From Micromonospora sp. Llam0 (lineage in GTDB: Bacteria; Actinomycetota; Actinomycetes; Mycobacteriales; Micromonosporaceae), in the NCBI RefSeq assembly GCF_003751085.1, contig NZ_RJJY01000001.1, positions 1 to 64,000 on the forward strand: a DNA stretch of 64,000 bases, written 5' to 3'. This document shows positions 1 through 27,478 of the stretch, piece after piece. The notes beneath the pieces are model-generated. The model made no database searches and was not told the DNA's origin. It was given only the letters and a program-made list of their open reading frames with translations. The position numbers and the translations under genes are program-made. The stretch's first letter is position 1. Every line of letters begins with the position of its first letter.

Positions 1-1664
1 ACGCGGGCTGTGGTCGCCCCGGCTTGTCGAGGTCGGCGAGCTTGCGGACCTGGGTGGGTTTCCACCGGGCCGCGTCGCTCGCACCACTCGCACTGTCCCG
101 CCGTGAGCCGGATGACCAGCTCTTTACGACGGGTGGTGATCGGGGCTGGTAGGCGGTCGTTGATGGCCGCCTTCTTCTGCCGTTTCAGGGGGATACCACC
201 GAACCTGGCGACCAGTGGTTTCCTGCCCGGCCGTGCCACGATGGCCTGGAAGCAGGTGCGCGGCCCGTGCGGTGTGACGATTTTGGCCTTGTACTTGCGG
301 GCCATCTTCATCACCGTCGAGCGATGCTTCGCAGCCAGGGTCTTGAGCATCGACGTTTCGGCGACCCACCGAAGCCGTTTCAGCTTCGACACGTCGCCGG
401 CGAGCAGGTAGTACTGAACCACGCCCCGGTACTCGGCGTCGTAGGTGCTGATGATGGCGTGGTCGTCCCAGCTCATCAACTCCTTGCGGCGCTCGGGTTG
501 ACCGCGTTCGAGGTAGGGGGCGATCTTGGCGGTGATCACCGTCCGGGGAACCCGCAGCCAGATGCTGCCGTTGACGCTGGGGCGGCACTGACTGTGTTGG
601 ACGGTGACCTCGTAGCCGAGGTATTGCGCAGCCTGGGTGCGGGCATGCGTGATCAAGGTCTTGTCCTGGCTCAGGTCCAGTTTGAGGTCGTCATGCAGGA
701 ACTGGGCCAGGCGTTGTTTGATCTGCTCGGCTTCGGCCTTGGGTCCGATGAACCCGAGGAGGTGGTCGTCTGCGTAACGGGAATATCGTAGCCGCCGGTA
801 TTCGGGATCATGAGTGTCCCATCCGGACATGCCACGTCGTTCCACACGCAGCCGGCGTGCCGCTATCCGATCGCCGCGCCGGTAAGCGCGTTTGATAGCG
901 GCCGATATCCTGTGGTAGGCAGGGTTGGGTGTTCTGCCAGCCCTTCGGGTGTACTGCGGGATGAGCACTGTCTCGACGAATCTGTCCAACCGATCCAAAT
1001 AGATGTTGGAAAGGATCGGTGATGCCACACCACCCTGCGGGGCGCCGCTGAGTGTTGCGTGATACTCCCAGTCCTCCAAGTACCCGGCTTGTAGCATCTG
1101 TTTGATGAGCCGGAGGAGCCGGTTATCGTGGATGTTTTCCGCCAGGATCGACAGCATGACCTCATGGTCAAGACTTCCGAAACAGTCGGCGATATCTCCC
1201 TCGATGAACCAGGTCGTCCCAGTCCAGGTGGTTGCCACTTCGTTTAGTGCGGTGTGGCAGCCACGGTTGGGACGGAAACCGTGTGAGCGATCGGAGAATC
1301 GCGGCTCGTAATACGCCTCCAACAGAAGGCGGACGACTTCGCCGACGAGTTTATCCGACCATGACGGTAGACCCAGGGGTCTCCGTTTTCCATTCTTTTT
1401 GGGAATGTAGACGCGTCGTGCTGGCTGGAATCGGTAGCGTTCGTGGCGCATCGCATCAATGATGCGGTCGATCTTGGCCAAAGACATCGCGTCGGCGGTT
1501 TCTCCGCAGGCCCCAGGCGTCATCGCTCCGTCGTTGGAGTAGATTCGGCCGTAGGCCAGTAGGTACAGGCTCGGGTTGAACAGTTGTCGGTACAGTTCGT
1601 TGCACGGCAGGCCACGCCTTCCGCGTTCACGTAGGACATTCAGCACCATTTCGGCGTTCTGCAT
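1..1664 (-). CDS. ltrA: Group II intron reverse transcriptase/maturase (partial, frameshifted near the edge)
   Basis: Reading from ATG at 1664 gives MQNAEMVLNVLRERG, typical of actinobacterial intron-encoded proteins. Reverse transcriptase landmarks follow in order: IPKKNGKRRPLGLP, the block SHGFRPNRGCHTAL, FIEGDIADCFGSLDH, SGAPQGGVASPILSNIYLD, and the catalytic RYADDHLLGF near 770. A maturase domain comes next, then the start of an HNH zinc-finger endonuclease domain (CEWCERRGPVETH). Just after this, near 50-60, the expected continuation QVRKLADLDKPGR lies one base out of frame, so the HNH domain appears frameshifted by an extra base in a run of C. The protein splices its host intron and copies it into DNA targets. 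The C-terminus is outside the window. Confidence 0.88.
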   Translation of the reverse strand, partial: MQNAEMVLNVLRERGRRGLPCNELYRQLFNPSLYLLAYGRIYSNDGAMTPGACGETADAMSLAKIDRIIDAMRHERYRFQPARRVYIPKKNGKRRPLGLPSWSDKLVGEVVRLLLEAYYEPRFSDRSHGFRPNRGCHTALNEVATTWTGTTWFIEGDIADCFGSLDHEVMLSILAENIHDNRLLRLIKQMLQAGYLEDWEYHATLSGAPQGGVASPILSNIYLDRLDRFVETVLIPQYTRRAGRTPNPAYHRISAAIKRAYRRGDRIAARRLRVERRGMSGWDTHDPEYRRLRYSRYADDHLLGFIGPKAEAEQIKQRLAQFLHDDLKLDLSQDKTLITHARTQAAQYLGYEVTVQHSQCRPSVNGSIWLRVPRTVITAKIAPYLERGQPERRKELMSWDDHAIISTYDAEYRGVVQYYLLAGDVSKLKRLRWVAETSMLKTLAAKHRSTVMKMARKYKAKIVTPHGPRTCFQAIVARPGRKPLVARFGGIPLKRQKKAAINDRLPAPITTRRKELVIRLTAGQCEWCERRGPVETHPGPQARRPRQAGATTAR

Positions 1665-2200
1665 TACGCATACCTCACGGTCGTTGAGTATCCAGCCACC
1701 TGGCCCCCTTCGCCCTGTGGACGGCCTTCCCGTCCTCCCTGGTCGGGCGTGACTCCGACGACTAATACGGGGCCTCTGTCACCATAGGGTTCGCACCCGA
1801 CAGGTGATCCCACGTTCGTCCCTGTCATACGTAATAGCGCGTTTTAGGTTCCCCACTCATTCCCTTGATCTCCCTCGCTGGGAGCCGTTCCACGCTCCGA
1901 AGGTTGCGCCGACCACCACATCATGTCGACGCAGAGCGTGACGCCGGTTGCAGACGCCTTTCCGGCGGGAGTCAGCCGCTTCACCTACCGGGAATTGGGG
2001 TTCAGGCAATCCAGCTTTAACCATGACGCGCGGGTCCCTCGTCGCCTCGTTTCATGCGTCTGAACACGAGCGGTGATTTCCTGGCATGCTACGGTTCCCT
2101 TCACTTTTCAGATCCAGGTGAGCCATTGGACCCAAGAATTTCCCTTCGAATTCTTCCCAACTGTGCTGGGGATATGACAGAGCGCCTCGTGGCGCAGTGT
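1..2200 (-). mobile_element. Group II intron, partial, inserted beside an IS1380 remnant
   Basis: The minus strand carries an intron-encoded reverse transcriptase preceded by several hundred bases of non-coding, structure-rich DNA (about 1665-2060), as expected for the 5' RNA domains of a group II intron. The intron runs off the left edge, so its 3' domains V and VI are not visible. Its 5' end could not be fixed. Similarity to the neighbouring transposase stops near 2200, so the boundary lies between about 2040 and 2200. It has the same orientation as the transposase remnant, which suggests insertion into that IS. Reverse transcriptase identity is certain; intron limits are inference. Confidence 0.7.
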
Positions 2201-20572: not shown

Positions 20573-20672
20573 GCCGTCGACGGCATCTGCCCTGACCCGG
20601 ATCCAGAATCGGCGACCGGCCACCCCACCAGCAGGCCGCGACCGGCCTATACCCCCAGCAGAGAGGCCAGTG

Positions 20673-22091
20673 ATGAACTCACCCCCGCGACGCCCTCGTC
20701 GGCGCATCCGTACCCGGATCGTCGCTGCCGCAGCCGCGCTGACCGCGACCGCCGTCGTCGCCTCGGTCACCGCGCACGCCAACGCCGCGATCCCACCCAC
20801 CCCCAGCGGCTGGGACCTGGTCTGGAGCGACGACTTCACCGGCGCCGCCAACACCCTGCCCTCGTCGGCCAACTGGATCATCGACACCGGCACCAGCTAC
20901 CCCGGCGGCCCGCCGCAGTGGGGGACCGGCGAGATCCAGACCTACACCAACAGCACCGCCAACGTCCGGCACGACGGCAACGGCAACCTGCGGATCACCC
21001 CGATCCGCGACGGCGCCGGCAATTGGACCTCGGCCCGGATCGAGACGGTACGCAGCAACTTCAAGCCGCCATCTGGTGGCGTGATGGCGATCGAAGGCCG
21101 GATCCAGGTGCCGAACGTGACCGGGGCCGCCGCCGCCGGCTACTGGCCGGCGTTCTGGGCGCTCGGGTCGCCGTACCGGGGCAACTACCAGAACTGGCCG
21201 GCGATCGGCGAGTTCGACGTGATGGAGAACGTCAACGGACTCAACACCGTCTGGGGCGTACTGCACTGCGGCGTCGCCCCGGGCGGACCGTGCGACGAGT
21301 TCAACGGCATCGGCGGGTCCCGAGCCTGCCCCGGCGCCTCCTGCCAGTCGGCGTTCCACACCTACCGCTTCGAGTGGGACGCCAGCGCCAGCCCGCAGCA
21401 ACTGCGCTGGTACGTCGACGGGCAGCACTACCACACGGTCACCCAGGGGCAGATCCCCGAGCCGCACTGGTCCAACATGACCACCCACGCCGGCTACTTC
21501 ATCCTGCTCAACGTGGCGATGGGCGGTGCCTTCCCGAACGGCGTCGCCGGCTCCACCACGCCGACCGCGAACACCGTTTCCGGCGTACCGATGCTGGTCG
21601 ACTACGTGGCGGTCTACACCCGCGGCGGGTCGAACCCGCCGCCCACCACCCCACCGCCGCCGACCACGCCGCCGCCCGGCGGTGGGGTGAACGCGTACGC
21701 CGCGATCCAGGCCGAGTCGTTCAACGCCCACAACGGGGTCGGGACCGAGGCGTGCAGTGAGGGCGGGCAGAACATCGGCTGGCTGGCCAACGGCGACTGG
21801 GCCCGCTACGACAACGTCGACTTCGGCTCGACGCCGCCGCGTGACTTCGTCGCCCGGGTCGCCTCCGGCGCCGGAGCCGGGGTCAGCGGCCTGGTCCAGG
21901 TCCGCATCGGCAGCCCGACCGCCGCGCCGATCGGCAGCTTCGCCGTCGGTGACACCGGCGGCTGGCAGACCTGGCGTACGGTGCCCGGCAACGTCTCCGG
22001 GGTGACCGGCCGGCAGACGGTCTACCTGACCTTCAGCAGCGGCCAGCCGAACGACTTCGTCAACGTCAACTGGTTCCACTTCCGCCGCTGA
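20673..22091 (+). CDS. Secreted GH16 beta-glucanase with C-terminal CBM6
   Basis: ATG 20673 has GAGAGG 6 bases upstream; the GTG at 20670 is alternative. The signal peptide spans residues 1-38. A GH16 domain follows, with the catalytic signature GEFDVMEN at about residues 178-185 (the two glutamates are nucleophile and acid/base) and sugar-binding WSDDF, EIQTYTN and HTYRFEWD. A proline/threonine linker leads to a CBM6-type module (AYAAIQAESFNAHNGVGTE, NGDWARYDNVDFGST, VNWFHFRR). It should cleave beta-1,3 or beta-1,3-1,4 glucans such as laminarin or fungal wall glucan. Expression is probably under LacI-type control from the operators upstream. Confidence 0.92.
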   Translation: MNSPPRRPRRRIRTRIVAAAAALTATAVVASVTAHANAAIPPTPSGWDLVWSDDFTGAANTLPSSANWIIDTGTSYPGGPPQWGTGEIQTYTNSTANVRHDGNGNLRITPIRDGAGNWTSARIETVRSNFKPPSGGVMAIEGRIQVPNVTGAAAAGYWPAFWALGSPYRGNYQNWPAIGEFDVMENVNGLNTVWGVLHCGVAPGGPCDEFNGIGGSRACPGASCQSAFHTYRFEWDASASPQQLRWYVDGQHYHTVTQGQIPEPHWSNMTTHAGYFILLNVAMGGAFPNGVAGSTTPTANTVSGVPMLVDYVAVYTRGGSNPPPTTPPPPTTPPPGGGVNAYAAIQAESFNAHNGVGTEACSEGGQNIGWLANGDWARYDNVDFGSTPPRDFVARVASGAGAGVSGLVQVRIGSPTAAPIGSFAVGDTGGWQTWRTVPGNVSGVTGRQTVYLTFSSGQPNDFVNVNWFHFRR

Positions 22092-23196
22092 CCCCGACGG
22101 GGAGCCCGGCCGGTCGACCCGCTTCGGCGGGGCGAGCCGGGCTCCCCTGGACCGCGATGCTCGCGAGCGGCGAAGGGTTCAGCCTGGCGAAGCCTTCCTG
22201 CCGCTGGTAGGGGAAGTACGGGTAGGGGGCGGTACGGCTGCTGGCATGGTCGAGTCGGGCCGTCTGTTCGGGGGTGAGGGACCAGCCGACGGCACCGATG
22301 TTCTGCCGGAGTTGTTCCTCGTCGCGGGCGCCGATGATGACGGTGGCCACGGTGGGTCGTCGCAGCAGCCAGTTGACCGCGATCTGCGGCACTGCCCGAC
22401 CGGTCTCGCGGGACAGTTCCTCGAGGACGTCCACCACGCGGAACAGGTGCTCGTCGTCGACCGGCGGACCGTAGGTGGCGGTCGCGTGCAGCCGACTGGT
22501 GGGCGGTGGCGGCGTGTCGCGGCGGATCCGGCCGGTGAGTCGGCCCCAGCCGAGCGGGCTCCACACGACGGCTCCGACACCCTGGTCGAGGCCCAGGGGC
22601 AGGAGTTCCCACTCGTAGTCCCGACCGACGAGTGAGTAGTAGACCTGATGGGCCACGTACCGGCGGCGGTGGTCCCGGTCGGCTGCGGCGAGGGACTTCA
22701 TCAGTTGCCAGCCAGCGAAGTTGGAGACGCCGAGATAGCGGATCTTCCCGTCGCGTACCAGGTCGTCGAGGGTTGCGACGACCTCTTCGACGGGTGTCGC
22801 GGCGTCGAAGGCGTGCAGCTGGAACAGATCGATGTGGTCGGTGCCGAGCCGGCGCAGCGCCGCGTCGACCGACCGGATGAGCCGGGCGTGTGAGGTTCCC
22901 GCGTCGTTCGGTCCGTCGCCGGTCGGCAGGCCACTCTTGGTCGAGATCAGCACGGCGTCGCGCCGGCCCTTGATCGCCTGCCCCAGCACCTGTTCGGACG
23001 CGCCGTCGGAGTACACGTCCGCGGTGTCGAACATGGTCACCCCGGCGTCGAGGCAGATGTCGACGAGGCGTCGTGCCTCGCGGGCGTCCGTGTTGCCCCA
23101 GGCACCGAAGAGCGGTCCGGAGCCGCCGAAGGTGCCGGCTCCGAAACTGAGGGCGGGCACGGTGATCCCGGATGCTCCGAGTTGTCGGTATTCCAC
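22066..23196 (-). CDS. Aldo/keto reductase, with unusual C-terminal extension
   Basis: The reductase shows the family residues TMFDTADVYSDG (Asp and Tyr), STKSGL (Lys), the HIDLFQLHAFD block and GVSNFAGWQL, with an NADPH-site region VIIGARDEEQLRQNIGAV. The GTG at 23196 (VEYRQLGASGITVPAL) follows GGAGG with 8-base spacing and is preferred over the upstream ATG 23211, which has no binding site. The last 40 or so residues are glycine/proline-rich and are encoded through the GH16 terminator hairpin, overlapping the GH16 stop by 26 bases. It is divergent from a TetR gene that may regulate it. Confidence 0.82.
   Translation of the reverse strand: MEYRQLGASGITVPALSFGAGTFGGSGPLFGAWGNTDAREARRLVDICLDAGVTMFDTADVYSDGASEQVLGQAIKGRRDAVLISTKSGLPTGDGPNDAGTSHARLIRSVDAALRRLGTDHIDLFQLHAFDAATPVEEVVATLDDLVRDGKIRYLGVSNFAGWQLMKSLAAADRDHRRRYVAHQVYYSLVGRDYEWELLPLGLDQGVGAVVWSPLGWGRLTGRIRRDTPPPPTSRLHATATYGPPVDDEHLFRVVDVLEELSRETGRAVPQIAVNWLLRRPTVATVIIGARDEEQLRQNIGAVGWSLTPEQTARLDHASSRTAPYPYFPYQRQEGFARLNPSPLASIAVQGSPARPAEAGRPAGLPVGVSGGSGTS
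22100..22146. terminator. Terminator hairpin at the GH16/reductase convergence
   Basis: GGGAGCCCGGC pairs with GCCGGGCTCCC, and an inner CCGC-TTCG-GCGG hairpin sits in the loop. It follows the GH16 stop by 9 bases and lies inside the 3' coding end of the reductase. Confidence 0.75.
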
Positions 23197-23211
23197 GCTG
23201 GTGACCTCCAT

Positions 23212-23284
23212 TAAAGGGACTGTAGTTCCGTTAGTGTGCGCTAGATTAGCAGTCAGCCGCCGTTAAGGAAACTGGAGACCCGTT
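23212..23284. promoter_or_regulatory. Divergent control region between reductase and TetR
   Basis: The 70-base interval is markedly AT-rich compared with its surroundings. It contains GGGACTGTAGTTCC (23215-23228), an inverted repeat with one mismatch and a candidate TetR-family operator, plus CTAGATTAGCAG to its right. Assignment is by position and symmetry only. Confidence 0.45.
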
Positions 23285-23896
23285 ATGGCCGTCGGTGCGA
23301 TCCGACCCGGCGGGCGGACCGCCCGGGTCCGCGCCGCCGTGCTCCGAGCTGCCGGTGACGCGCTCGTCGAGCACGGCTTCGACCGCCTCGACCTCGCCGA
23401 CGTGGCGCGCCGTGCCGAGGTGGGCAAGACCACGGTCTACCGCCGCTGGGGCACGGTCGCCGGCCTGGTCGCCGACCTGCTGACCGACATGGCGGAGCAG
23501 TCGCTGCCGCGGGCCGATACCGGGTCGCTGATCGAGGACCTGCGGGCCAACGCCCGGCTCGTGCAGCGCACCCTGGCCGATCCGCGTCAGGGTGCACTCT
23601 TCCGGGCGGTCATCGTCGCCGCGACCTGCGACCCCCGCACCGCCGAGGCGCTGCACCGCTTCTACGCCGTCCGCATCGCCGAGTGGGCACCCTGCGTGGA
23701 GCAGGCCGTACGGCGGGCGGAACTGCCCCAGGGTACGGACGCCGCCGAGGTCATCCGCGCCGTCTCGGCGCCGCTGTACTACCGCCTGCTCGTCAGCGGA
23801 GACCCGGTCGACGAGGCCACGGCGGACCGGGCCGCCGAAGCGGCGGCGGCAGCCGCCCGCGCCGGCGTCTACGCGCCTGCCAGTGGTCTCGACTAG
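23285..23896 (+). CDS. TetR-family transcriptional regulator
   Basis: A 203-residue regulator with an N-terminal TetR HTH (VRAAVLRAAGDALVEHGF, then LADVARRAEVGKTTVYRRWG) and a helical C-terminal ligand domain (TetR_C-type: ALFRAVIVAATCDPRTAEAL, YYRLLVSGDPVDEATADRAA). GGAG precedes the ATG by 8 bases. Divergence from the aldo/keto reductase suggests that it represses that gene and itself, with release by a substrate or toxic aldehyde. The ligand is unknown. Confidence 0.88.
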   Translation: MAVGAIRPGGRTARVRAAVLRAAGDALVEHGFDRLDLADVARRAEVGKTTVYRRWGTVAGLVADLLTDMAEQSLPRADTGSLIEDLRANARLVQRTLADPRQGALFRAVIVAATCDPRTAEALHRFYAVRIAEWAPCVEQAVRRAELPQGTDAAEVIRAVSAPLYYRLLVSGDPVDEATADRAAEAAAAAARAGVYAPASGLD

Positions 23897-24158
23897 AAAC
23901 AGGTCGGCCCAACCGAAATCGGCGTGACGCGCCAACTGTGAACAGCCCGACGCCCGGGGTCGCAAGTGCGACATCGACGGAGTCGTCGAATTGACAGATA
24001 TTCCCTCCTGGATGGGTGCCACCAATTCCGCATACTATCTGCTCAGGGTTCCCTCAGAAATTCATCATGGTTTCGCGGAGTGCCGACGCAAATAGGCATC
24101 CATGCTGGATCTAATTCCACGACGGAAGAGACCGTCAATCTTCGAGGGGAACAGAATC

Positions 24159-25376
24159 ATGACCAAGACTGCCATCGGACGTTCGGCCGCAGGCGCCGTC
24201 CACCGCCGGAGCCGTGCCACCGCGCTGCTGGCCGCGTCGTTCGCCGGCTGCCTGCTCGGCGCCGGCCTCGGCGCCGGCGCCGCGCACGCCGCACCGCTGC
24301 CCGGCTGCGGCATGGCGGCGGTGTTCGACACCGAGATCCACTGGGGTAGCAGTTCCAATCCGTGGCACGGCGACGCCGATCTGCACCTGTTGCTGGACAA
24401 CCGGAAAACCATCATCGACGGCGAGACCGTCCCTGCGGGTACGCGGCTGACCTGGGCCGGCCCGAATGGCAATGCGGACATCACCTTTGGTGAGGACGGC
24501 ACGTTCACCGGCAGTGCCCGGTTCCCGGGTGAGGGTGGCGTCGGCTACCGGGGCACCCTCGCGGCGTCCACCCCGGTGGCCTGCGACGAGCCGGCGACCT
24601 ACGCCGCTGAGATCCGCTGGGGCAGCAGTTCCGACCCGTGGTACGGCGACGCCGAGACGACGATCATGGTGAAGAACCGGCGGACCATCGTGGATGCCGA
24701 GTCGGCTTCCACAGGCACGCAGTTGACCTGGACCGGCCCGAATGGCAATGCGGACATCACCTTCGGTGAGAACGGAATGTTCACCGGCAGTGCCCGGTTC
24801 CCGGGTGAAGGCGGTGTGGGCTACCGAGGCAGCCGCAAGGCGGTCTGTGACGTGGCGGTGTTCGACACCGAGATCCACTGGGGTAGCAGTTCCAATCCGT
24901 GGCACGGCGACGCCGATCTGCACCTGTTGCTGGACAACCGGAAAACCATCATCGACGGCGAGACCGTCCCTGCGGGTACGCGGCTGACCTGGGCCGGCCC
25001 GAATGGCAATGCGGACATCACCTTTGGTGAGGACGGCACGTTCACCGGCAGTGCCCGGTTCCCGGGTGAGGGTGGCGTCGGCTACCGGGGCACCCTCGCG
25101 GCGTCCACCCCGGTGATCTGCGACGACGCAGCGGTCTTCGCGACCGAGTCCCGGCTGTCCCCACTGCCGTGGACCGCGGACACCGACCTGACCGCGATGA
25201 TCAGCAACCGCCGGGTCATCGTCGACGACCGGACCATCCCGGCCGACACGACCCTGACCTGGACCGGCCCGCAGGGTGACGCCAACATCACCTTCCGGGC
25301 GGACCGCGACTTCGCCGGCACCGTCGAGTACCCGGGCACGCCCATCGAACTGCGCTACCGCGGCACCGCCCGCTGA
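24159..25376 (+). CDS. Secreted four-repeat protein resembling OAA-type lectins
   Basis: ATG 24159 follows GAGGGGAA. Residues 1-45 are a signal peptide ending GAAHA. The rest is four tandem units starting near residues 55, 147, 234 and 326 (periods 92, 87 and 92). Units 1-3 share EIHWGSSSNPWHGDADL at the start, then NRKTIIDGE, LTWAGPNGNADITFG, and end with FTGSARFPGEGGVGYRGTL. The WGsSxPW and GEGxxGyRGTL landmarks resemble the anti-HIV OAA lectin and myxobacterial MBHA family (WGGSSAPW, GEGPIGFRGTL), in which these and an Arg in the middle bind mannose. Unit 4 has lost both landmarks (RLSPLPW, YPGTPIELRYRGT). Units here are about 20 residues longer than in OAA. The relationship is by motif memory, not a search. 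Each of units 1-3 could bind a glycan outside the cell. Confidence 0.7.
   Translation: MTKTAIGRSAAGAVHRRSRATALLAASFAGCLLGAGLGAGAAHAAPLPGCGMAAVFDTEIHWGSSSNPWHGDADLHLLLDNRKTIIDGETVPAGTRLTWAGPNGNADITFGEDGTFTGSARFPGEGGVGYRGTLAASTPVACDEPATYAAEIRWGSSSDPWYGDAETTIMVKNRRTIVDAESASTGTQLTWTGPNGNADITFGENGMFTGSARFPGEGGVGYRGSRKAVCDVAVFDTEIHWGSSSNPWHGDADLHLLLDNRKTIIDGETVPAGTRLTWAGPNGNADITFGEDGTFTGSARFPGEGGVGYRGTLAASTPVICDDAAVFATESRLSPLPWTADTDLTAMISNRRVIVDDRTIPADTTLTWTGPQGDANITFRADRDFAGTVEYPGTPIELRYRGTAR
24317..24578 (+). repeat. 262-bp perfect direct repeat, copy A
   Basis: Identical base for base to 24854-25115 (offset 537 bp, 179 codons), inside lectin-like units 1 and 3. The intervening unit 2 is clearly diverged. 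Confidence 0.95.
24854..25115 (+). repeat. 262-bp perfect direct repeat, copy B
   Basis: Second copy of the 24317-24578 sequence. Synonymous sites are identical too, so the copies were homogenised recently. Confidence 0.95.
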
Positions 25377-25385
25377 CCCAACCCC

Positions 25386-25420
25386 GCCGGCCCCGTGGCA
25401 CCCGCTGCCACGGGGCCGGC
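25386..25420 (+). terminator. Terminator after the lectin-like gene
   Basis: GCCGGCCCCGTGGCA pairs perfectly with TGCCACGGGGCCGGC around CCCGC, 10 bases after the stop codon. Confidence 0.85.
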
Positions 25421-25459
25421 CTCGCGCCCGTACTCCCGGTCGGCTGGGATGCTTCGGGC

Positions 25460-25957
25460 ATGCCTTCCTACCCGCCGACGTTCGCCGACCAGGTCGTCAC
25501 CCAACCGCTGCGCGCTCAGTTCGAGGCGTTCCTCGACGAGCACCGCAGCGCACTCAACCGCTGTCTGGACGGGCTGACCGAGGAGCAGGCCCGCCGATCG
25601 TTGGTCGCCTCCCGGACCACGTTGCTGGGTCTGGTGAAGCACGCGACCTTCGTCGAGAAGGTCTGGTTCGACGAGGCCATGACGTGCCGGCCGCGTACGG
25701 AGCTCGGGCTGCCCGCGACGGCGGACGAGTCGTTCGTCCTCGCTGCCGACGACACGATCGCCAGCGTCCAACGCGCCCACCGCGAAGCCTGCGAAGCGTC
25801 CCGCCGGGCGACGTCGTCCCTGGAGCTGGACGACATCCTGCCCGGCAACCGGCGAGGTCCGCTTCCGCTGCGCTGGGTGTACCTGCACGTGCTGCGCGAG
25901 CTCGCCCAGCACTGTGGGCACGCGGACATCCTCCGCGAGCAACTCGCCGACGAGTAG
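25460..25957 (+). CDS. DinB-like DUF664 family protein
   Basis: A 165-residue four-helix-bundle protein. The DUF664/DinB pattern is visible in ALNRCLDGLTEEQARRSLVA, LGLVKHATFVEKVWFDEAM (first metal-binding His) and PLRWVYLHVLRELAQHCGHADILRE (paired His). Actinobacterial DUF664 proteins include mycothiol-dependent transferases and are often stress-linked, but no substrate can be assigned. It stands alone after a strong terminator. Confidence 0.8.
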   Translation: MPSYPPTFADQVVTQPLRAQFEAFLDEHRSALNRCLDGLTEEQARRSLVASRTTLLGLVKHATFVEKVWFDEAMTCRPRTELGLPATADESFVLAADDTIASVQRAHREACEASRRATSSLELDDILPGNRRGPLPLRWVYLHVLRELAQHCGHADILREQLADE

Positions 25958-26004: not shown

Positions 26005-26033
26005 TTTACAAAACTGTTAAGAGTCTTAATAAT
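26005..26033 (+). promoter_or_regulatory. Chitinase promoter with palindrome in the spacer
   Basis: TTTACA (26005-26010) and AATAAT (26028-26033) are 17 bases apart. The spacer contains TTAAGAGTCTTAA (26017-26029), a perfect palindrome around a central G. The stretch is strikingly AT-rich. A repressor there would compete with RNA polymerase. Confidence 0.65.
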
Positions 26034-26065
26034 TGCCGCACTGGTGCTTCGAGGGAGGGATGTCG

Positions 26066-27478
26066 ATGAAACCCGTACGGATAGTCGCCCCGGTGCTGGC
26101 TGCGGTCCTCGCCGCCGCAGGGGTGATCTGGGCGGCCGGCCCGGCCCTGGCCGCCGGCCCCACCGCGACCTTCGTGAAAACCTCCGACTGGGGCAGCGGT
26201 TGGGAAGCCAAGGTCACCGTCGCCAACGGTGGCGCCACCGCCATCACCGCCTGGACCGTCGCCTTCGACCTGCCGGCCGGCACCACGGTCGGCACCTACT
26301 GGGACGCCCTGCTCAGCGTCTCCGGGCAGCGGTTCACCTTCACCAACCGCAGCTGGAACGGTCACCTCGCGCCAGGCGCGTCGGTCTCGTTCGGGTTCCT
26401 CGGTAGCGGGCCGGGCAGCCCGACCAACTGCACCCTCAACGGTGCGCCCTGCGGCGGCCAGCAGCCGCCGCCGACGACGACGGCCCCACCCCCCACCACG
26501 CCCCCGACTACCGCTCCGCCCACCACCACGCCGCCGACGACGGCCCCACCCCCCACCACGCCGCCGCCGACCGACGATGGGCTGCCGGAGCACTTTCTCA
26601 CCGGCTATTGGCACAACTTCGACAATCCGGCCGTCGAGCTGCGGCTTCGCGACGTGCCGGCCGAGTACGACCTGATCGCGGTCGCCTTCGCCGAGGCCAC
26701 CAGCACCCCCGGCGCGGTCAGCTTCGGCATCGACCCGGGGCTGTCCGCCTCGCTCGGCGGCTACACCGACGCTCAGTTCAAGGCTGACGTCGCCACCCTG
26801 CACCAGCGTGGCAAGAAGGTGATCATCTCGATCGGCGGGGAGACCGGCCGGGTCGCGGTCAGCGACCCCGCGTCCGCCGCCGCGCTCACCGACAGCCTGT
26901 ACCGGCTGATCCAGGACTACGGCTTCGACGGCGTCGACATCGACCTGGAGAACGGGCTCAACCCGACCTACATGGCGCAGGCGATGCGCGCGCTGCGCAG
27001 CCGGACCGGGCCAGGGCTGATCATCACGATGGCACCGCAGACCATCGACATGCAGTCACCGTCGGTGTCGTACTTCAAACTGGCGTTGGACATCCGAGAC
27101 ATCCTGACCGTGGTGCACACCCAGTTCTACAACTCCGGGTCGATGCTCGGCTGCGACCAGGCGTTCGCCTACAGCCAGGGCACGGTCAACTTTCTGACCG
27201 CGCTGGCCTGCCTGCAACTGGAATCGGGCCTGCGGCCCGACCAGGTGGCTCTCGGCCTGCCCGCCGGCCCGGGAGCGGCCGGCGGCGGCATCGTCGCCCC
27301 GACGATGGTCAACCAGGCCCTGGACTGCCTGGCCCGGGGCACCAGCTGCGGCAGTTTCCGGCCGCCTCGCACCTACCCCGGCATCCGGGGCGCGATGACC
27401 TGGTCGATCAACTGGGACGTGACCAACGGCAGCGGGTTCGCCCGTACCGTCAAGCCGCACCTGGCGACGCTGCCCTGA
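26066..27478 (+). CDS. Secreted GH18 chitinase with N-terminal CBM2
   Basis: GAGGGAGG (26051-26058) fits ATG 26066 better than ATG 26060. The signal peptide spans residues 1-30. A CBM2 domain follows (TATFVKTSDWGSGWEAKVTV, WTVAFDLPAGTTVG, FTNRSWNGHLAPGASVSFGF, CTLNGAPC), then a PTTT linker and a GH18 domain from about 170. The catalytic motif DGVDIDLE is at about residues 289-296, with the last Glu as proton donor. Substrate-assisted hydrolysis of chitin is expected, with CBM2 anchoring to chitin or cellulose. Together with the GH16 enzyme this suits digestion of fungal cell wall. Confidence 0.93.
   Translation: MKPVRIVAPVLAAVLAAAGVIWAAGPALAAGPTATFVKTSDWGSGWEAKVTVANGGATAITAWTVAFDLPAGTTVGTYWDALLSVSGQRFTFTNRSWNGHLAPGASVSFGFLGSGPGSPTNCTLNGAPCGGQQPPPTTTAPPPTTPPTTAPPTTTPPTTAPPPTTPPPTDDGLPEHFLTGYWHNFDNPAVELRLRDVPAEYDLIAVAFAEATSTPGAVSFGIDPGLSASLGGYTDAQFKADVATLHQRGKKVIISIGGETGRVAVSDPASAAALTDSLYRLIQDYGFDGVDIDLENGLNPTYMAQAMRALRSRTGPGLIITMAPQTIDMQSPSVSYFKLALDIRDILTVVHTQFYNSGSMLGCDQAFAYSQGTVNFLTALACLQLESGLRPDQVALGLPAGPGAAGGGIVAPTMVNQALDCLARGTSCGSFRPPRTYPGIRGAMTWSINWDVTNGSGFARTVKPHLATLP

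Follow-up and report, generated by a model that had tools for sequence, protein, structure and literature searches.

A probably secreted four-unit OAA-type lectin of Micromonospora sp. Llam0 with long units that may each hold their own sugar site

The window analysed here, a stretch of 64,000 nucleotides from Micromonospora sp. Llam0, contains a gene for a protein of four tandem units related to OAA, called the lectin below (Table 1). With a probability of about 0.6, we explain it as a multivalent OAA-superfamily lectin that is secreted and whose long units are self-contained. The new part is the possible shift from a shared to an autonomous sugar site; the kinship with OAA itself is already known.

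The lectin is almost certainly an OAA-type homologue. Pfam family PF17882 matches it in four stretches with an E-value of 1.8e-61 and 204.8 bits against a cut-off of 20. The sequence matches in the PDB at E ≤ 0.02 are six, namely BOA (1.5e-9), MBHA (6.1e-9), two OAA-type entries, PTL and PFA, and the next is an antibody at 0.29. Two of the PDB matches are titled just 'Lectin' and are presumably family members, as assigned by entry code. A unit-profile search adds SfL-1, and the top five Foldseek rows for the lectin model are BOA, BOA, SfL-1, BOA and MBHA. Thus the relation to OAA and MBHA claimed in an earlier sequence-only reading holds, but is no discovery because PF17882 in Pfam already covers the lectin. 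The NCBIfam model NF050073 (LectinOAAFamily) scores 55.2 bits, under its curated cut-off of 150. Other library matches were rejected, as Big_11 scored 20.1 bits against a cut-off of 25, and Rib, GspH and three NCBIfam models were all under their cut-offs.

The four units lie in one open reading frame as that reading had them, and are found both by Pfam and by a six-frame profile search of the genome, from which their coordinates are taken. They start 276, 261 and 270 bases apart. The repeat is far above chance because the six pairwise unit scores range over 154–444 and any pair among 500 shuffles reaches 56 at most. Like the classical OAAH proteins of two or four repeats, the lectin has four. 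However, the OAAH repeat is of ~66–67 residues in two papers (PMC8166773, PMC10655256), and those of the matched PDB lectins are of ~66 judged by their lengths, whereas the lectin's unit cores are of about 80. The longer unit and the added LTWxGPxGNAD stretch of the sequence-only reading are both borne out, the latter as a predicted strand pair (residues 96–101 and 104–110 in unit 1).

In PTL (PMC8166773), each sugar site lies across two repeats, one of which gives the Trp and its partner the Arg and Glu. One site is contacted by W10, R95 and E123 through their side chains and by G11, G12, G124 and P125 through their main chain, and the second likewise uses W77, R28 and E56. In the lectin, the motif starts are 62, 154 and 241 for WGSSS, 124, 216 and 303 for GEG, and 81, 173, 260 and 350 for Asn-Arg. 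Units 1–3 accordingly read W-G-S, N-R and G-E-G-G, and compared with the classical site Ser stands in place of the second Gly and Gly in place of the Pro, but the side-chain Trp, Arg and Glu are all kept, as had been proposed. For unit 4, the proposed loss is right as to Trp and Glu but not as to Arg, since Asn-Arg is retained; the letters there opposite Trp-Gly-Gly depend on the alignment.

A site table was made of 68 long-unit rows, some from fragments, leaving out P0037, P0039, P0043, P0044 and P0045, which were judged short-unit or of other architecture. All 66 rows that have a residue at the Arg position carry Arg. Glu is kept in 63 of 66, and 57 of 65 have an aromatic residue at the Trp position (47 W, 6 Y and 4 F). 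Glu is missing only from unit 4 of three proteins, namely the lectin, its counterpart in G306, another genome of the family, and P0002, so this loss is probably one inherited event. The lectin is likely to bind glycans, and a mannose-rich ligand is slightly more probable than not.

The classical OAAH fold is a ten-strand barrel from two repeats with the sites across them, whereas the lectin models suggest sites within the unit. One long unit of the AlphaFold models aligns to OAA 2–133 over 73 residues at 2.1–2.6 Å. Because a single unit spans this range, it is rather favoured, with moderate support, that every unit closes on itself around a site of its own, which would give the lectin three sites. 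Folding alone also predicts one-unit proteins, and such proteins are found. The lectin thus shares with OAA, PFA and PTL the family PF17882, the Trp-Gly, Arg and Glu-Gly of units 1–3 and the one-unit fit to OAA (2.1 Å at best), and differs by the longer cores, the extra strand pair, a signal-like start, leader cysteines and the predicted self-containment. With MBHA, BOA and SfL-1, its best matches by sequence and Foldseek, it shares the four units. Since the Foldseek template modelling (TM) scores to these four-repeat lectins are merely 0.14–0.15, the overall arrangement in the models seems different; the lectin units are also longer and the site of unit 4 is lost.

Three points weigh against the self-contained unit. 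An isolated unit is modelled with a predicted local distance difference test (pLDDT) score of 78.5 and poorly around its Arg, unrelated barrels tie in the unit structure comparison, and the one-unit proteins would also be explained if single units dimerised by strand exchange. The first and the last suit an MBHA-like alternative, in which units 1 and 2 and units 3 and 4 make two strand-sharing barrels with the sites across partners; without the residues lost from unit 4, neither site of the second barrel would work, which leaves two. Two- and four-unit forms are common, as this would have it, and PTL as a solved family lectin has the cross-repeat sites cited above. We hold it unlikely, however, as shared strands should need two units for what one unit of the full model covers, and one-unit proteins exist. 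Hence four units as in MBHA, as first read, is correct in number but may mislead as to the fold, because the models favour self-contained units, though not decisively.

Another alternative is that the lectin is a repeat protein, secreted for a structural or adhesive role, that has kept the fold but lost mannose binding. The WGS and GEGG in place of the usual WGG and GEGP speak for it, and both replacements are limited to the window protein, G306 and P0002 among the 68 rows, the same three whose unit 4 is without Trp and Glu. It is improbable nevertheless, as the site side chains are retained in units 1–3, and Gly12 and Pro125, the PTL residues at the replaced places, touch the sugar via the main chain only (PMC8166773). 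Besides, the whole gene differs from that of G306 by a dN (nonsynonymous divergence) of 0.012 and a dS (synonymous divergence) of 0.063, which suggests that the gene as a whole is under purifying selection; unit 4 has one synonymous and three other codon changes, too few for judging selection. A doubtful but compatible addition to the self-contained lectin is that it belongs to a set for attacking fungal walls and anchors the cell or the neighbouring enzymes to mannan. Its gene lies between those of a GH16 enzyme with CBM6 and a GH18 enzyme with CBM2 in its own genome and in G306, but both enzyme genes remain where the lectin block is missing (G304, G305, G308), and no carbohydrate enzyme was read among the Catenuloplanes neighbours, where no family search was made.

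Under the self-contained explanation, the added strand would let a unit of ~82 residues close on itself, and Trp-Gly at its start, Arg in its middle and Glu-Gly at its end would make one sugar site. After export the four units may be arranged as beads, disulfide-paired through the leader cysteines, and the three sites would bind glycans rich in alpha-mannose by avidity. The candidate ligands are mannan from the walls of fungi or algae and glycoproteins of a host, and unit 4 would be a structural or adapted unit. More widely, we see about an even chance that the long units represent a distinct way of building the OAA sugar site, in which the extra strand makes the strand-sharing barrel a one-site unit of this size, single in some bacteria or strung in twos or fours, mostly with cysteine pairing in the exported proteins.

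If so, a topological step in lectin evolution, from the shared to the autonomous site or the reverse, is seen in living sequences. Research on OAA lectins is directed at their antiviral use (PMC8166773). Their sites are coupled because they are common to two repeats, and a natural ~82-residue unit that carries its complete site would provide a smaller and freely countable module. The series of one, two and four units would allow unit-by-unit tests of avidity. The lectin also puts the OAA family among probably exported actinobacterial proteins, for which no paper was found among the matches listed in the open-licence literature.

Each protein search for relatives scored only about 8000 candidates. 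Four units are found in two named relatives, from Solwaraspora sp. WMMB762 (97% identical) and from Plantactinospora sp. WMMB334 (47%). Long forms with two units and a signal-like N-terminus come from Catenuloplanes and from unnamed, mostly metagenomic records. One near-complete long unit is present in 18 of the 44 listed relatives by our own reading; of these, P0017, P0020 and P0026 are on contigs of more than 15 kb and many others on short contigs. Further one-unit forms are WP_326682866.1 of Streptomyces sp. NBC_01237, whose 84 residues are hardly more than one unit, and, likewise, an 86-residue open reading frame of Nonomuraea gerenzanensis. The one-unit forms have the long unit, Asn-Arg and the W-x-x-x-x-G strand pair in common with the lectin but differ by the single unit, in some by having Tyr, Phe or Thr instead of the Trp and, by eye, by lacking an evident signal peptide in many. 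By sequence, the longer unit is thus the mark of a broader sub-branch whose members have one, two or four units. Of the undescribed secreted branch first proposed, this sub-branch stands, but its OAA kinship is in Pfam and the long unit occurs also outside secreted proteins.

One Cys right before each unit is found in 11 of 15 full-length multi-unit proteins and in Catenuloplanes but not in P0004, P0013, P0014 and P0018, and a disulfide pairing of these leader cysteines is plausible. The metagenomic one-unit proteins P0016, P0017, P0020–P0022 and P0024–P0026 have a charged N-terminal part of ~40–50 residues with at least one Cys ahead of the unit. Export is not limited to the long-unit branch, because the metagenomic P0039 (300 residues) has four classical short units and, by eye, a lipoprotein-like signal.

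Units 1 and 3 have the same 80-residue core, and their DNA is 99.2% alike across 258 bases. In contrast, the identity to the G306 orthologue is about 97% (window 24321–25097), so the two units are closer to each other than to their orthologues, a sign of sequence exchange between units. The unit tree clusters by species, with units 1–3 of the window and G306 at 99/99 and the four Plantactinospora units at 92/98. It has few columns, many open forks and a very long branch for unit 4 (1.53). Together, the exchange and the weak tree blur whether the Solwaraspora and Plantactinospora four-unit forms had separate origins.

The lectin is probably exported, as read from its charged start, hydrophobic stretch and AHA at residues 42–44; residues 1–41 of its model have a pLDDT below 50. 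Cys31 (FAGC) was dropped as a lipoprotein cysteine because Phe is three residues before it and the hydrophobic run continues beyond it. An in-frame ATG further upstream at 24102 is less favoured as the start because GAGGGGAA directly precedes the ATG at 24159. A sigma-70 promoter scan over 23800–25600 found 0 against 0.1 expected, which is uninformative for such a genome. A viral origin was rejected, as two viral contig scans gave no relative of the lectin and tblastn of the one-unit P0026 against phage records gave none either.

Table 1. Features of the lectin gene and its surroundings (window positions)
Feature	Coordinates	Strand	Remarks
Lectin coding sequence, four-unit OAA-type, 405 residues	24159..25376	+	Open reading frame and Pfam
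Predicted signal peptide, residues 1–44, AHA preceding the cut	24159..24290	+	Read from sequence
Unit 1	24321..24560	+	W62, N81-R82, strand pair 96–110, E125; Trp/Arg/Glu kept
Unit 2	24594..24836	+	W154, R174, E217; Trp/Arg/Glu kept
Unit 3	24858..25097	+	80-residue core equal to that of unit 1; Trp/Arg/Glu kept
Unit 4	25137..25364	+	Profile still matches; site Trp and Glu substituted, Arg kept
Leader Cys50	24306..24308	+	Ahead of unit 1
Leader Cys142	24582–24584	+	Ahead of unit 2
Leader Cys230	24846–24848	+	Ahead of unit 3
Leader Cys321	25119–25121	+	Ahead of unit 4
Accessory block, ~3.3 kb	22114..25413		Aldo/keto reductase, TetR-type regulator and lectin; missing in same-genus G308
Aldo/keto reductase	22066–23211	-	
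TetR-type regulator	23285–23896	+	
GH16-type enzyme with CBM6	20670..22091	+	Flanking, context
GH18-type enzyme with CBM2	26033..27478	+	Flanking, context

The gene order is GH16, aldo/keto reductase, TetR-type regulator, lectin, a gene of the mycothiol-S-transferase family and GH18, and is identical in G306. In the stretches fetched from G304, G305 and G308, none of the three block genes is present beside the two enzyme genes. Compared with G308, the block is cleanly missing, and G304 has ~1.8 kb of other sequence instead. The G309 stretch has a transferase-type gene alone. The lectin block is therefore accessory, gained or lost. In G307 (L048:8620-9326) the locus is eroded to a TetR piece and a transferase piece, and no gene for the GH16 enzyme, the lectin or the GH18 enzyme was found in that stretch.

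Of 354 genomes in the family, 26 including the own one contain PF17882, as do two of 396 sampled from the phylum, one of them again the own. The long form is in three of the 26 (the own, G306 and G097, the protein of the last matching that from Catenuloplanes japonicus), and the loci of the other 23 are of different architecture by reading, three of them (L027–L029) with short or broken frames. Pfam on L007 gives, at 298-1710 (+), DM9 repeats, a middle in which nothing matches at 0.001, and a pair of PF17882 units at the C-terminus. By eye, L008, L010–L012, L014 and L022–L024 have a similar layout, and L009, L013 and L015 have the middle region and PF17882 units without the DM9 part. No literature was found that joins DM9 with Oscillatoria agardhii and lectin. 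DM9 is also linked to mannose binding, so these DM9 and PF17882 proteins may be double lectins.
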